Below the pieces are notes generated by a model, which worked only from the letters and a program-made list of their open reading frames with translations, was not told the DNA's origin and did not search any database. From positions 1-64,000 of the forward strand of contig CACHRI010000004.1 of NCBI GenBank assembly GCA_902582155.1: a stretch of 64,000 bases of DNA. Direction: 5' to 3'. Each line of letters starts with the position of its first letter. The first letter of the stretch is position 1. The translations under genes were made by a program, and so were the position numbers. This document shows, piece by piece, positions 26,315 to 52,308 of this stretch. This DNA comes from an uncultured Pelagibacteraceae bacterium (GTDB lineage: Bacteria > Pseudomonadota > Alphaproteobacteria > Pelagibacterales > Pelagibacteraceae).

Positions 26315-26764
26315 ATGCAAAAATGTTACTTAGCAATGGGATGTTTCTGGAAACCCGAGGAACAATTTAAAACTCAAAAAGGCATTATAAATACTGAGGT
26401 GGGGTACGCAGGAGGATATAAATCAAAAATAACCTATGAAGAAGTTTGTCAAGGTAACACAGGTCATGCAGAAATTGTTAAGCTTTCATTTGATGAAAAA
26501 GTAATAACTTTTGAAAAAATTTTAGAACTTTTTTTTAAACTACATGATCCAACTCAAAAAGATATGCAATTTCCAGATGTTGGAACTCAATATAGAAGTG
26601 AAATATTTTACGAAAATGATCAACAAAAAGAGATAGCAAAAAAGGTTAAAGAAAAATTTAATAGAATTTATAATAATAAAATTGAAACAAATATTTCTCC
26701 GATTAAAAATTATTGTAAAGCAGAGGAATATCATCAAAAATATATTGAAAAAAATCGAAGATGA
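26315..26764 (+). CDS. msrA: Peptide-methionine (S)-S-oxide reductase
   Basis: MsrA repairs methionine-S-sulfoxide with a catalytic Cys. The active site MGCFWKPEE (usually GCFWG or GCFWC) keeps the nucleophile Cys; GYAGG, GHAEIV, DPTQKD, DVGTQYRSEIFY and AEEYHQKY are the family blocks. The length of 149 aa is on the short side. A possible resolving Cys is in NYCKAEEYH. Its stop overlaps the start of the sulfurtransferase gene by 4 bases, so both sulfur-handling enzymes are probably made together. Confidence 0.93.
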   Translation: MQKCYLAMGCFWKPEEQFKTQKGIINTEVGYAGGYKSKITYEEVCQGNTGHAEIVKLSFDEKVITFEKILELFFKLHDPTQKDMQFPDVGTQYRSEIFYENDQQKEIAKKVKEKFNRIYNNKIETNISPIKNYCKAEEYHQKYIEKNRR

Positions 26765-27576
26765 ATCCTCTTAAATCTACAGAATGGCTTGAAAAAAATA
26801 TTGATAAAGTAAAAATTTTAGATGCAACTTGGCATATGCCAAGTTCAAATCGGCATGCATTTGAAGAATATCAAAAAAACCATATTAAAAATTCAATTTT
26901 TTTTGATTTAGATAAAAACTCTAATCAGAAAACTTCTTTGCCTCACATGCTACCTGAATTAAAAGAATGGGAAAAAATAGTTTCTAAATTAGGTATTGAA
27001 AATAATGATCATATAGTCGTTTATGATAATTCTGATGTGTTAAGTGCAAGTAGATGCTGGTTCACATTTTTATATTTTGGACATGATATAAACTTAGTAT
27101 CGGTCTTAGATGGAGGGTTAAAAAAATGGAAATTAGAAAACAGACCATTGTCAAAAGAAAATGTAAGTTCTGTAAAAACAAATTATAAAGCATCCTCAAA
27201 AAATAATTTGGTTATTAATATAGATCAAGTTGAAAAAAATATTGAAAAAAAAGAATTTTGTTTAATTGACGCAAGAGGTGAAGAAAGATTCAAAGGTTTA
27301 GTAGAAGAACCAAGAAAAAATTTGAGGAGAGGAAATGTAAAAGGATCAAAAAACCTTCCATTTTCAAAAATTATTAACCCTGAAAATAATACCTTCAAAA
27401 AAAAAGAAGAATTAGAGAATATATTCTTAAACAACGGTATAAACCTTAATGAAAAATTAGCTTTTAGCTGCGGAAGTGGTATAACAGCCTGTGTCTTAGG
27501 TCTAGCTAGTGCTGTTGTTAATAACAAATTACCGGTTATATATGATGGTTCTTGGGCAGAATATGGGCTCAAATAA
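26761..27576 (+). CDS. sseA: 3-mercaptopyruvate/thiosulfate sulfurtransferase
   Basis: Two-rhodanese-domain protein of 271 aa. The N-terminal inactive domain shows STEWLEKNIDKVKILDATWHMP and HIVVYDN; the C-terminal one has DARGEERFKG and the catalytic Cys loop SCGSGITACV. The CGSGITA pattern favours mercaptopyruvate over thiosulfate as donor. It follows msrA with a 4-base overlap and is 1 base before the RND adaptor gene. Confidence 0.92.
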   Translation: MNPLKSTEWLEKNIDKVKILDATWHMPSSNRHAFEEYQKNHIKNSIFFDLDKNSNQKTSLPHMLPELKEWEKIVSKLGIENNDHIVVYDNSDVLSASRCWFTFLYFGHDINLVSVLDGGLKKWKLENRPLSKENVSSVKTNYKASSKNNLVINIDQVEKNIEKKEFCLIDARGEERFKGLVEEPRKNLRRGNVKGSKNLPFSKIINPENNTFKKKEELENIFLNNGINLNEKLAFSCGSGITACVLGLASAVVNNKLPVIYDGSWAEYGLK

Positions 27577-27577
27577 A

Positions 27578-28450
27578 ATGAAAACATCAACTAAAATAAA
27601 AACTTTTGTAATATTATTTATTGTTGCTATCACAGTTACAATCACTGCAAGACATTTTATAGGATTGCACTTTAAGAAAAAATTTAGTGTTAGACCAGCG
27701 CCTGGTGTAATAGTTAAAGAGGTTGAGAAATCACAATTTTACAAAAGTATTGAAACATTTGGTACTGCAATAGCTCAAAATTCTAAAACTTATAGAATTA
27801 AAAAAGATGACATTATCGGGAACTTAAGAATTGAAAATAGATTTGTAAAAAAAGGGGAGATCATAGCTGCTTTAAAGAATAGTAACAATATTATAGCGGA
27901 TTTTGCAGGTAAACTTGGAAAAAGAGAAATTGCCCAAGGGGTCTTAGGATCTGATAGTTTAATTATAACTCTTGATGATTTAAAAAAGATTTTAATAGAT
28001 ATTAAAATACCTGAAAGTTATGTCGGAATATTAAAACCGGGTTTAAAAGCAGAAATAACAAGCTCGTCATTTACTGAAAAAAAATTTAAAGGTAAAGTAT
28101 CCTCTATTAGTTCTAGAATAGATCCTTCAACTAGATCTATTTTAGCAAGAGTTTCTGTGAATAATAAAAATTTTCAAATTATTCCAGGCCAATTAATGAC
28201 CGTTAAAATAATATATGATGAAATTAATCAGATTGGGGTCCCGGAGAGTGCGGTAACAATTCAAGGAAGTACTTCGTTCGTTTATATTGTAAAAAATGAT
28301 ACAGCTGAAAAAAGAATTATCAAAATCGGAAATAGAAATTTTGGTAAGATTTCTGTTATGTCAGGGATAGAAGAGGGAGATTTTGTGATTTCTGAAGGTG
28401 TTTCTAAAGTAAGAAATAAATCAAAAGTAAAAGTTATCAATACTAAATAA
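27578..28450 (+). CDS. RND efflux periplasmic adaptor lacking the alpha-hairpin
   Basis: Membrane-fusion protein of 290 aa; the ORF-track start at 27509 is rejected because it lies inside sseA and ATG 27578 begins a clean N-terminal anchor (IKTFVILFIVAITVTITA). Beta-barrel and membrane-proximal domains are present (IDIKIPESYVGILKPGLKAEI, SSRIDPSTRSILARVSV, VPESAVTIQG). The two lipoyl half-motifs run straight into each other (FVKKGEIIAALKNSN then IIADFAGKLG), with no room for the usual coiled hairpin that reaches TolC. It sits 4 bases before the pump gene; no outer-membrane channel is nearby. Confidence 0.88.
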   Translation: MKTSTKIKTFVILFIVAITVTITARHFIGLHFKKKFSVRPAPGVIVKEVEKSQFYKSIETFGTAIAQNSKTYRIKKDDIIGNLRIENRFVKKGEIIAALKNSNNIIADFAGKLGKREIAQGVLGSDSLIITLDDLKKILIDIKIPESYVGILKPGLKAEITSSSFTEKKFKGKVSSISSRIDPSTRSILARVSVNNKNFQIIPGQLMTVKIIYDEINQIGVPESAVTIQGSTSFVYIVKNDTAEKRIIKIGNRNFGKISVMSGIEEGDFVISEGVSKVRNKSKVKVINTK

Positions 28451-28454
28451 TAGA

Positions 28455-31400
28455 ATGTTTTTAACTGATTTATCAATAAAAAGACCTGTTGTTGCCTCTG
28501 TAATGAGTTTGGTTTTGGTCATTTTTGGTTTGTTTACTTTTAATGAAATACCTACAGATGAATTACCAGACGTTCAGGCTCCTGTTGTCACGATACAGAC
28601 TGAGTACAAAGGTGCGTCGGCAGAAATCATTGATACTCAGATAACTCAAAGGATAGAGGATTTTGTCGGAGGAACACCTGGATTAGAAACAATCGACTCT
28701 TTTAGCGAAGATGAAAGCTCTAGAATTACTCTTACTTTTGAAAACAATTTAGACTTAGACGATGTAGCTAATGACGTAAGAAGTTCTGTTGCTAGGGTAT
28801 TGGATAATCTTCCAGATGGAGCTGAGCAGCCTGAGATTTTTAAACAAAGTGCTGGTATGAGAACCACAATGTGGTTGTCTTTTAGTTCAAATACTATGAC
28901 AGATTTAGAATTAACTGATTATGCTGATAGATATCTTACAGATTTATTTTCAACTGTAGAAGGAGTTGGTAGAGTTCGATTAGGAGGAGAGAGAGAGCTT
29001 TCCTTAAGAGTTTGGCTTGATCCTCTGGCTCTTGCAGCAAGAGATTTGACTACACAAGAAGTTGAGACTGTCTTAAGGAAGGAAAATGTTGAGTTTCCTG
29101 CTGGAAGAATAGAGTCTAAGGATGTTGATTTAACCATTAAACTAGATAAAGCCTATAAAAATTTAGAAAGCTACAAAAAATTACCACTTAAAAGAGCAAG
29201 AGATGGTTCAATAATTACACTTTCAGATGTTGCTAGAGTTGAACTGGGAGCGGAGTCAACAAGAACTTTATTTAAAGGAAATGGAAAACAAGTTGTTGGT
29301 ATTGGTATTTATCAGCAATCAGATGCGAATACTATTAAAGTCGCAAATGGAATAAAGAGTAAAATTAAAGAAGTTAGGCCTGGATTACCCCCTGGAACAT
29401 CTTTAGAGGTTTCTTTCGATAGAAGCAATTACATAAAAGCTGCAATAAAAGAAGTTTATAAAACTTTATTTATCGCTTTAATATTAGTGACGATAATAAT
29501 CTATCTTTTTTTAGGTAATATCAGAGCATTAGTAGTGCCTCTTATTGCCTTGCCAGTTTCTTTAATATCTACTTTTTTATCAATTTACTTTTTTAATTTC
29601 TCAATAAATCTATTCACATTAATGGCTCTAGTTTTAGCAATAGGGATAGTTGTTGATGATGCAATAGTAATGCTTGAGAATATCGTAAGAAGAATAGAGC
29701 TAGGAGATACACCTCTAGTAGCCGCATATAAAGGTGCGAAACAAGTTTCTTTTGCAATTATAGCTACTACAGTTGTATTAGTTGCAGTATTTGTTCCACT
29801 CGTATTTATCAAAGGGATTACTGGTGTTTTATTTACTCAAACTGCAATTACTTTGGCTTCAGCAGTTGTTATTTCAAGTTTTGTTGCACTTTCTTTAAGT
29901 CCAATGATAGGCAGTAAAATTCTAAAGAAAAATATGAATAAGTCAAAGATTGTAATTAAATTTGAAAAATTTTTAAAAAATATAACATCCGTGTACAAAC
30001 AGTCTTTGGTAACTTGGGTAAGAAAAAGAAAAATTATAATTTCATTTTTAGGAATTGTATTATCTCTAACTATTTTTTTATTTAATTACACACCAAAAGA
30101 ACTAATTGCTCCGGAAGACAGGGGTGCTTTTTTTGTAATAGTAAAAGCCCCACAAGGATCAGGTTTCAATTTTACAAAATCTAAAGCTGAAGATATTGAA
30201 AATCTATTGTTACCTAATGTTGGCAACGGTGAATACAGGAAGTTAATTTTGCGGGTTCCTGGATTTGGAAAATCTGCAAAACAAGTGAACAGTGGTTTTA
30301 TAATAGTTCTTTTGGAGCCATGGGCTAAAAGAGATCGTCATGGTGTTAAGATTATGAGAGAGTCTTTTGGAAAAATTTCCCAAGTACCGGGTGTATTAGC
30401 GTTTCCAATAATGCCCCAAGGTATAAGAACAGGTGGTGTAGAAAGCCCTGTTCAATTTGTAATTTTAGGAAATACGTATGATCAATTAATAGAGTGGAAA
30501 AATATTATAAAAAAAGAAGCTAGAAAGAATCCAGGCTTAACATCAATACAGGATGACTTTGATTTAAACAAACCGCAACTTAATGTTCAGATAGATCAAA
30601 AAAAAGCTGCTGATCTAGGTGTTTCAACAGAAGATATAGGAAGAACAATTGAAACTATTTTCGGCTCTAAACGTGTTACAAATTTTACTAGAGATGGGAA
30701 AGAATACTCAATCATCCTTCAAGGAGACATTAAAGATAGACAGGAGCCTGACAGTATTAGTAAAGTTTTTGTAAGATCCAATAATAATGGTAAACTTGTA
30801 TCAATCTCAAATTTAATTCGATACGATGAGGAGGGTCAGTCACCTTTTTTAGCGAGATATAATAGGCAAAAAGCAGTAACGATTTCAGCAAGACTTGTTG
30901 GTGATTACTCTCTGGACGAAGCTTTAAATTTTTTAGTTAAAGTTGTTGAGGATAATACTCCAGAAGCAAAAATTGCTTACAAAGGAGAAAGTGAAGAGTA
31001 TAAAAAAACTAACACAGAATTATATATCATTTTTATATTAGCTTTAATTACGGCATATTTAGCAATGTGTGCGCAATTTGAAAGCTGGAGACATCCGCTA
31101 ACTATAATGTTAACAGTGCCACTAGCTATATTAGGAGGTTTATTAGGAATATTGGTAGTGGGATCATCTTTAAATATTTATAGTCAAATAGCTTTAATTA
31201 TATTAATTGGCTTGTCAGCCAAAAATGGAATCTTAATTGTCGAATTTGCAAATCAGCTGAGAAAAGAGGGAAAAAATTTAGAGACATCAATAATTGAGGC
31301 TGCATCCATTAGATTTAGACCTATTTTAATGACAAGTCTTTCGACTATTATTGGAGTACTTCCTCTCATACTTGGTTCTGGTCCAGGAGCTGCAAGTAGA

Positions 31401-31550
31401 CTTTCTGTAGGAATAACAATATTTGGTGGAATGCTTTTTTCAACTTTTTTTACTTTGTATGTGATTCCAACAATTTATTCTATTATTGGAAGGAATACTC
31501 AGAGAATCGACGCTGTTGAGATTGAATTAAACAAGCAGCTTAAAAAATAA
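28455..31550 (+). CDS. RND-family multidrug efflux permease (AcrB/MexB-like)
   Basis: Proton-driven trimeric inner-membrane pump of 1031 aa. The N-terminal LSIKRPVVASVMSLVLVIFGL, the TM4 proton-relay Asp pair in IGIVVDDAIVMLENIVRR, the TM10 Lys region (GLSAKNGILIVEFAN) and the porter loops are all in the expected order, in two homologous halves. The adaptor is encoded 4 bases upstream. Similarity to the HAE1 group suggests drugs, lipids or detergents as cargo, but not which. Its end overlaps a convergent transglycosylase gene by 11 bases. Confidence 0.94.
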   Translation: MFLTDLSIKRPVVASVMSLVLVIFGLFTFNEIPTDELPDVQAPVVTIQTEYKGASAEIIDTQITQRIEDFVGGTPGLETIDSFSEDESSRITLTFENNLDLDDVANDVRSSVARVLDNLPDGAEQPEIFKQSAGMRTTMWLSFSSNTMTDLELTDYADRYLTDLFSTVEGVGRVRLGGERELSLRVWLDPLALAARDLTTQEVETVLRKENVEFPAGRIESKDVDLTIKLDKAYKNLESYKKLPLKRARDGSIITLSDVARVELGAESTRTLFKGNGKQVVGIGIYQQSDANTIKVANGIKSKIKEVRPGLPPGTSLEVSFDRSNYIKAAIKEVYKTLFIALILVTIIIYLFLGNIRALVVPLIALPVSLISTFLSIYFFNFSINLFTLMALVLAIGIVVDDAIVMLENIVRRIELGDTPLVAAYKGAKQVSFAIIATTVVLVAVFVPLVFIKGITGVLFTQTAITLASAVVISSFVALSLSPMIGSKILKKNMNKSKIVIKFEKFLKNITSVYKQSLVTWVRKRKIIISFLGIVLSLTIFLFNYTPKELIAPEDRGAFFVIVKAPQGSGFNFTKSKAEDIENLLLPNVGNGEYRKLILRVPGFGKSAKQVNSGFIIVLLEPWAKRDRHGVKIMRESFGKISQVPGVLAFPIMPQGIRTGGVESPVQFVILGNTYDQLIEWKNIIKKEARKNPGLTSIQDDFDLNKPQLNVQIDQKKAADLGVSTEDIGRTIETIFGSKRVTNFTRDGKEYSIILQGDIKDRQEPDSISKVFVRSNNNGKLVSISNLIRYDEEGQSPFLARYNRQKAVTISARLVGDYSLDEALNFLVKVVEDNTPEAKIAYKGESEEYKKTNTELYIIFILALITAYLAMCAQFESWRHPLTIMLTVPLAILGGLLGILVVGSSLNIYSQIALIILIGLSAKNGILIVEFANQLRKEGKNLETSIIEAASIRFRPILMTSLSTIIGVLPLILGSGPGAASRLSVGITIFGGMLFSTFFTLYVIPTIYSIIGRNTQRIDAVEIELNKQLKK

Positions 31551-48987: not shown

Positions 48988-51063
<2,076 letters not shown>

Positions 51064-51192
51064 TTAATTAATCAAATTTTATATCATTTTTTGTTGTCAA
51101 TATACAATCGACAAACTTGAAGGCCTTCTATTTGTATTTAATATCAACAGTTTTAGATGATTTTTTAAAAAAAAAAACTAAAAGAGTTTTTT
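51064..51192 (-). promoter_or_regulatory. dnaN-gyrB spacer with an A/T hairpin and an inverted repeat
   Basis: recF normally sits here in many bacteria, but the 129-bp gap holds no gene. AAAAAAACT and AGTTTTTTT (51171-51193) form a 9-bp A/T stem just after the dnaN stop, followed by a T run on the minus strand, so a weak terminator is likely. TTGTC and GACAA (51093-51113 region) form an inverted repeat in front of gyrB. A gyrB promoter is expected but no confident -35/-10 pair was found. Confidence 0.4.
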
Positions 51193-52308
51193 TTAAATTT
51201 TCATCGGCATTATTACATAAAAACTGTTTTTATCTGAATTATCTAAAACTAAAACTGGAGAGGTTGAATTTTTTAAACTAAAAGTAAGTTCTTTGTCTTC
51301 AACTTCAGAAGCTATATCTATTAAATATTTTGAATTAAACCCAATTACCAAATCATCGCCATCATATTTAGCCGGAACAATCTCGTTTCCATCTCCCGAG
51401 TTTGTGCTATTTACAGATAGTTTTAGTTTATCTTTGCTTAATTCTAATTTTACGCCTTCTTTTCTATCTATAGAAACAGAGGCAACTCTCTCAACAGAGC
51501 TAATAAAGTCAAGAGAAGAAACTATCAACGTCTTAGAGTTGTCTTTTGGAACTACTTTTTGATAATCTGGAAACTTTCCATCTATTACTTTTGAAATTAA
51601 ATTTATTTTTCCAATAGAAAACTTTATTTTATTCTCACTTGTTTTTATAAATAATTTCTCATTTGTCTCATCAATTAAAGAACATAGCTGAAATACTGTT
51701 TTTCTTGGAATTATCATTGAGGAAAAATTATTGATATCTTTTACATTTATGCTGCTTGAAGATAGCCTGTGACTATCAGTTGCAACACCAGTTAAAAATG
51801 TATTCTTATTAGACTCTGTGGCATGAAGATATATGCCATTTAAATAATGCCTCGTATCATCATTTGATATTGAAATCTTGGTTTTATTCAAAAGTGATAA
51901 AAAACTTTTCCTATCTAATTCTATCTCCTTGCTGACAAAGTCATCATCAAAGGTAGGAAAATTACTTGGAGGCAAACAAAGGAGGTTAAAATCAGAATTT
52001 TCAGTTTTTAAACTCAATTTATTCTCACTTTTTAATGTAAAATTTAATTCAGAATTGGAGGGGATCTTTCTCAAAATATCAAATAGAACGTTTGCTGAGG
52101 TCGTTGTACTACCTTCCTCTATTAGTTTTAAGTCCGAAATTTCATCGTTGAAAACAATATCTAAATCTGTTGCAACTATCTCTAGTTTATTATCTTTTAA
52201 ATTTAAGAGAACATTAGAGAGAATAGGTAGAGTATTTTTTTTTTCAACTACTCCCTGCACAAAATTTAGCGATTTTAATAAAAGATCTCTTTTTATATTA
52301 AACTGCAT
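51193..52308 (-). CDS. dnaN: DNA polymerase III beta sliding clamp
   Basis: Ring-shaped dimer clamp that tethers polymerase III. The 371 aa show three repeated clamp domains and the normal start MQFNIKRDLLLKSLNFVQGVVEKKNTLPILSNVLL and end FYVIMPMKI. The FLTGVATDSHRLS and hydrophobic-pocket segments are standard. It follows dnaA with 5 bases between, so the two form an operon. Confidence 0.95.
   Translation of the reverse strand: MQFNIKRDLLLKSLNFVQGVVEKKNTLPILSNVLLNLKDNKLEIVATDLDIVFNDEISDLKLIEEGSTTTSANVLFDILRKIPSNSELNFTLKSENKLSLKTENSDFNLLCLPPSNFPTFDDDFVSKEIELDRKSFLSLLNKTKISISNDDTRHYLNGIYLHATESNKNTFLTGVATDSHRLSSSSINVKDINNFSSMIIPRKTVFQLCSLIDETNEKLFIKTSENKIKFSIGKINLISKVIDGKFPDYQKVVPKDNSKTLIVSSLDFISSVERVASVSIDRKEGVKLELSKDKLKLSVNSTNSGDGNEIVPAKYDGDDLVIGFNSKYLIDIASEVEDKELTFSLKNSTSPVLVLDNSDKNSFYVIMPMKI

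Follow-up and report, generated by a model that had tools for sequence, protein, structure and literature searches.

The 64,000-nucleotide window, which is the whole stretch of DNA analysed here, comes from an uncultured SAR11 bacterium of the family Pelagibacteraceae. Positions 26315–31550 form a tight cluster of an MsrA-like gene, a sulfurtransferase-like gene, an adaptor gene, and a pump gene, and this order is common to most genera of the family. The features of the cluster, and the channel gene located elsewhere in the genome, are:

26315..26764, + strand: MsrA-like gene, function from sequence recognition; overlaps the sulfurtransferase gene
26761..27576, + strand: rhodanese/sulfurtransferase-like gene, function from sequence recognition; 1-bp gap to the adaptor ATG
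27578..28450, + strand: RND periplasmic adaptor lacking the hairpin, 290 aa from ATG (ORF, TIGR01730, Pfam, BesA as the top structural match)
27590..27682, + strand: N-terminal membrane helix of the adaptor, residues 5–35 (AlphaFold2 helix and sequence)
27743..27874, + strand: first half-lipoyl stretch, approximately residues 56–99 (alignment to hairpinned relatives)
27875..27889, + strand: junction KNSNN, residues 100–104, where relatives have a hairpin of about 61 residues (HMM-based insertion measurement and breakpoints)
27890..27985, + strand: second half-lipoyl stretch, approximately residues 105–136, IIADFAGKLGKREIAQGVLGSDS..TLDDL (alignments; relatives align from here)
28455..31550, + strand: HAE-1 RND pump, 1031 aa (ACR_tran, 962.8 bits)
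contig C3, ~50504–51799: TolC-family gene between a kinase-like gene and recA, upstream of recA

Of 15 loci sampled in the family, 14 have the sulfurtransferase-like gene, adaptor, and pump in succession, with MsrA upstream in most genera, and the adaptor adjoins the pump in nearly all sampled family loci. The MsrA and sulfurtransferase neighbours are a possible clue to the substrate of the pump, pointing to oxidative or sulfur stress.

Judged by its sequence, the product of 27578–28450 is the RND periplasmic adaptor of the HAE-1 pump. It scores 137.7 bits against TIGR01730 (RND_mfp; cut-off 94.9) and exceeds the gathering scores of both Pfam HlyD_D23 and HlyD_3, and the RND pump gene (ACR_tran) lies 4 bp downstream. 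The TIGR01730 match starts only at profile position 135. The half-lipoyl sequence ..VKKGEIIAALK is joined directly to IIADFAGKLGKREI.. via NSNN, forming a junction of about five residues, in agreement with the preliminary description, which had read the lipoyl half-motifs as joined without a coiled hairpin. A profile of the family adaptors aligns to the protein from the window as one continuous domain and splits on other Pseudomonadota adaptors, with the breakpoints exactly between ..VKKGEIIAALK and IIADFAGKLGKREI... The insertion at the split measures 59–62 residues in 73 of 76 hairpinned Pseudomonadota records, some of which are duplicates, and 75 residues in the other three. The hairpinned status of record L208 is based on domain coordinates and inspection (60-residue insertion), and that of L239, L266, and L277 on length and on duplicate or similar alignments. 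For comparison, the hairpin has 61 residues in MexA and 75 in AcrA, and 9 residues occupy its place in BesA (Bunikis et al., PMC2279261).

The AlphaFold2 model of the adaptor (mean pLDDT 79.7, pTM 0.60, 44 sequences) contains the N-terminal helix of residues 5–35, and the rest is beta structure except for turns. The approximately 61 residues of the canonical hairpin of the AcrA/MexA type are absent, and the model has no such helices. A Foldseek search of the PDB with this model returned eight BesA chains at ranks 1–8 (E-values 8e-16 to 1.5e-14, TM-scores 0.62–0.72), with AcrA and MexA below them, so BesA, offered earlier as an example, is the right comparison. Because the N-terminus has no cysteine, it is not a lipobox anchor as in BesA and AcrA. 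A frameshift or sequencing error as the cause of the missing segment is excluded, because nothing interrupts the reading frame and all inspected adaptors from Pelagibacteraceae share this architecture.

The adaptor has a match in 270 of 297 Pelagibacteraceae genomes and in 125 of the 127 near-complete ones, and most of the listed family matches cover the entire length, in frames of about 290 aa. In a second draw of 58 family genomes, at least 95% complete except for the genome of the window, a match above the cut-off is present in all 58. The hairpin is absent from every adaptor sequence inspected, from about a dozen genera, and the named relatives belong to Pelagibacteraceae or Candidatus Pelagibacter. 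Some family adaptors reach 332–339 aa, the extra length being a C-terminal extension and not a hairpin. One subgroup (L158:4034-5050, L159:4103-5101, L160:4305-5306, L161:3992-4987) carries a charged C-terminal extension of 40–50 residues, which ends in the possibly amphipathic stretch FDWLKKLNIFKK. In the near set, alignment columns are on average 85% identical for the adaptor and 94% identical for the pump. The preliminary description had counted few such adaptors, and BesA is indeed a known case, but the SAR11 adaptor is no isolated oddity, being fixed across Pelagibacteraceae. The hairpinless kind was already known, because Greene et al. (PMC3807786) noted such sequences in Treponema and Spirochaeta and, rarely, in proteobacteria, for example Legionella. 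Our literature search found no paper on SAR11 RND/TolC systems. What is new here is the fixation across the SAR11 family, the derived origin, and the matching change in TolC, which are described below.

In a tree of 86 adaptors, the SAR11 sequences form one clade (SH-aLRT 100) with a single change of state, located between hairpinned groups (support 85–86). The tree is a quick one without bootstrap, calculated without BesA and with the hairpin cut out, with the hairpinned sister family as the outgroup; the AcrA branch is very long. When 386 genomes of the class and 398 of the phylum were sampled, the frames of the non-SAR11 matches are at least 334 aa long among the matches listed, which are the best ~150, so that distant hairpinless adaptors could be missed. 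Nearly all of the listed non-SAR11 matches begin past the first half-lipoyl, and the shortest, 330–333 aa as ORFs, contain a separate hairpin insertion, of 59 residues where measured. The sister family from the same order likewise has an RND adaptor and pump and a channel of the TolC family, in tolC-padR-adaptor-pump loci. However, its adaptors are 352–357 aa long and contain a hairpin of 60–61 residues, its TolC keeps the VG tip motif, and its channel gene is near the adaptor. From these comparisons, the loss of the hairpin in SAR11 looks derived. The nesting of the SAR11 adaptors within hairpinned adaptors of proteobacteria makes it probable that SAR11 and BesA lost the hairpin independently. 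According to a proposal by Bunikis et al. (PMC2279261), adaptors without a hairpin are the primitive form; the SAR11 case does not fit this proposal and argues against it.

The proton-relay residues of the pump, D407, D408, K940, R971, and T978 in AcrB numbering, are intact, and the pump is predicted to be competent for proton-driven transport. Its NF033617 score of 1055 bits is below the cut-off of 1250. The docking domain has no insertion relative to pumps paired with hairpinned adaptors, so compensation by a longer docking domain was not seen. The AlphaFold2 model of the pump was too poor for docking (mean pLDDT 42). In genome G100 (L146:5566-8666), the pump is split into two ORFs of 517 and 416 aa beside an intact adaptor, as a result of pseudogene formation or an assembly error.

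The absence of an adjacent channel gene, pointed out in the preliminary description, is true of the window. However, a search of the genome (977 kb, 88% complete) identified a single protein of the TolC family (431 aa), encoded on a different contig, C3, and in one related genus (genome G066, locus L149) a gene of this family adjoins the adaptor in divergent orientation. Because the channel is encoded elsewhere in the genome, its absence concerns gene order only, and the possibility that the genome has no channel was rejected. Of 66 near-complete genomes from the family, 63 encode an OEP protein, usually in a single copy. Compensation by a longer TolC was not seen, as full-length SAR11 channels have 429–448 aa compared to 428–429 aa in the sister family. 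Across the 58 family genomes, the hairpinless adaptor is usually the sole HlyD_D23 match above the cut-off, and no type I HlyD exceeds the cut-off in any of 58 family genomes. The genome of the window has a single HlyD_3 match, and the idea of a second, hairpinned adaptor there was rejected. Given the usual single adaptor and the lack of type I HlyD above the cut-off, the pump is, by elimination, the likeliest partner of TolC. Genome G188 (L312:1887-15473; similar in G103) encodes a 2230-aa protein starting KKKIFIEALEQRIMLDG; next to it lie ORFs that resemble adaptors of the lipoyl type and a long, divergent lipoprotein similar to TolC, in what looks like a separate secretion locus. A few genomes encode extra outer membrane factors (OMFs), which were considered as an internal control for the tip motif but belong to a divergent lipoprotein subfamily and were unusable.

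In AcrAB-TolC, a Val-Gly-Leu/Thr element of the TolC tips touches the tip of the AcrA hairpin (PMC5404916). The valine of the first tip is replaced in all 30 SAR11 TolCs, by Arg (18), Lys (9), or Asn (3), and that of the second tip likewise in all 30, by Ser (24), Thr (4), Ala (1), or Gly (1); these 30 sequences are not all independent. One or two extra residues are present in the second tip in 26 of the 30, and in none of 28 other alphaproteobacterial OMFs, which were taken as the top OEP scorers from a sample of the class, not at random. Val, Ile, or Leu occupies the site in 24 of these 28 channels at tip 1 and in 27 at tip 2, and both sister-family channels keep valine at the tip sites. The loss of the adaptor hairpin and the change of the TolC tips coincide in one lineage and count as a single event with no independent repeats. 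In windows of 16 residues, the SAR11 tips are at the 92nd and 96th percentiles of conservation, and therefore probably still touch something. The gate residues are also kept (D153 in 30/30, Y362 in 30/30, and R367 in 29/30), so a loss of the primary gate like that in BesC was not seen; since these residues are retained, unlike in BesC, something must open SAR11 TolC. The tyrosine at the Y362 position (L005:4505-5800 and relatives) is invariant in the 30 SAR11 TolCs and present in one of the 28 other alphaproteobacterial OMFs.

With the hairpin lost and TolC changed at the spot that contacts it, the SAR11 pumps probably connect to their channel in an unusual manner. We consider it probable that the system is a tripartite, proton-driven pump with TolC docked directly on the pump and lipoyl ring, which arose through one ancestral deletion of the hairpin. 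The HAE-1 pump would export without the adaptor hairpin, and the adaptors would ring it through their lipoyl, barrel, and membrane-proximal domains. The TolC encoded elsewhere would set its altered tips directly on top of the pump and lipoyl ring, forming a conduit shorter than in AcrAB-TolC, and the substrate would be handed to TolC for export across the outer membrane. The tree supports a scenario in which a hairpinned adaptor resembling MexJ would have lost its hairpin by a single deletion in the ancestor of Pelagibacteraceae, and the Val-Gly tip motif of TolC, whose change is observed, would have been altered in the same lineage. Of the two suggestions made at the outset, a different contact with the channel and release into the periplasm, both now judged by the TolC tips, the first is favoured because the tips are conserved yet lack the hairpin-contact motif. 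Points against this reading are the lack of a compensating insertion in the docking domain of the pump, the retained primary gate of TolC, and the restriction of the co-change to one lineage.

The strongest rival, weaker than the tripartite reading, is a bipartite pump independent of TolC, which would take substrates out of the cytoplasm or inner membrane and release them in the periplasm, or have an envelope-related or lipid-related function, while TolC serves otherwise. It would account for the operon lacking a channel gene, the vanished tip motif for adaptor hairpins, and the docking domain without an insertion; nevertheless, we regard it as unlikely, because in most near-complete genomes TolC would then lack any other recognised adaptor to work with, the tips are still highly conserved, and TolC adjoins the adaptor in the genus represented by L149. 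Still less likely is a separate, unrecognised helical protein that supplies the hairpin and bridges the pump and TolC: Greene et al. raised the same idea for BesA (PMC3807786), but we noticed no conserved small ORF beside the operon among ORFs of at least 90 aa in the sampled loci, and the motif that hairpins use has been lost from the TolC tips. A decaying, non-functional relic, which lost its hairpin through the streamlining that made this genome small, is very improbable given the column identities of adaptor and pump, the intact proton relay, and the retention of the adaptor in nearly all near-complete genomes.

Tip-to-tip models of tripartite pumps depend on the adaptor hairpin, and BesA (Borrelia burgdorferi BesABC; PDB: 4KKS, 4KKT, 4KKU) is so far the solved exception, from a hairpinless tripartite pump that works (PMC2279261, PMC3807786). 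A second case, which appears to be independent and derived, is fixed across SAR11, the ocean's most abundant bacteria and dominant heterotrophs, and comes with loss of the motif by which the channel contacts the hairpin; it suggests that the hairpin is dispensable, and the natural co-change of adaptor and channel could show which surfaces replace it. AcrA and MexA, from AcrAB-TolC and MexAB-OprM, have the hairpin, whereas the SAR11 adaptor is without it, so tip-to-tip docking through the RLS motif does not take place. The best sequence match among solved structures is MexJ of the MexJK-type systems (P. aeruginosa, PDB: 20yy; E-value 6.7e-12), but the alignment does not start until residue 117, past the site of the missing hairpin. 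The SAR11 adaptor shares with BesA the fold, the partnership of a single such adaptor with an RND pump, and a short loop that links the lipoyl halves in place of the whole alpha-hairpin and is 9 residues long in BesA and about 5 in SAR11. In contrast, BesA is a lipoprotein and the SAR11 adaptor has an N-terminal membrane helix with no cysteine; besC lies in the operon, whereas tolC is on another contig and adjoins the adaptor only in L149; and BesC has lost the gate network (PMC2279261) that SAR11 TolC keeps in D153, Y362, and R367. The full claim, of a hairpin-free tripartite pump throughout the family with rebuilt TolC tips docked directly on the pump and lipoyl ring, arising from a single deletion with matching Val-Gly loss and independently of the spirochetes, has in our estimate about an even chance of being correct. 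The SAR11 system is best explained as a variant of the BesABC kind that arose by convergence and extends throughout the family.
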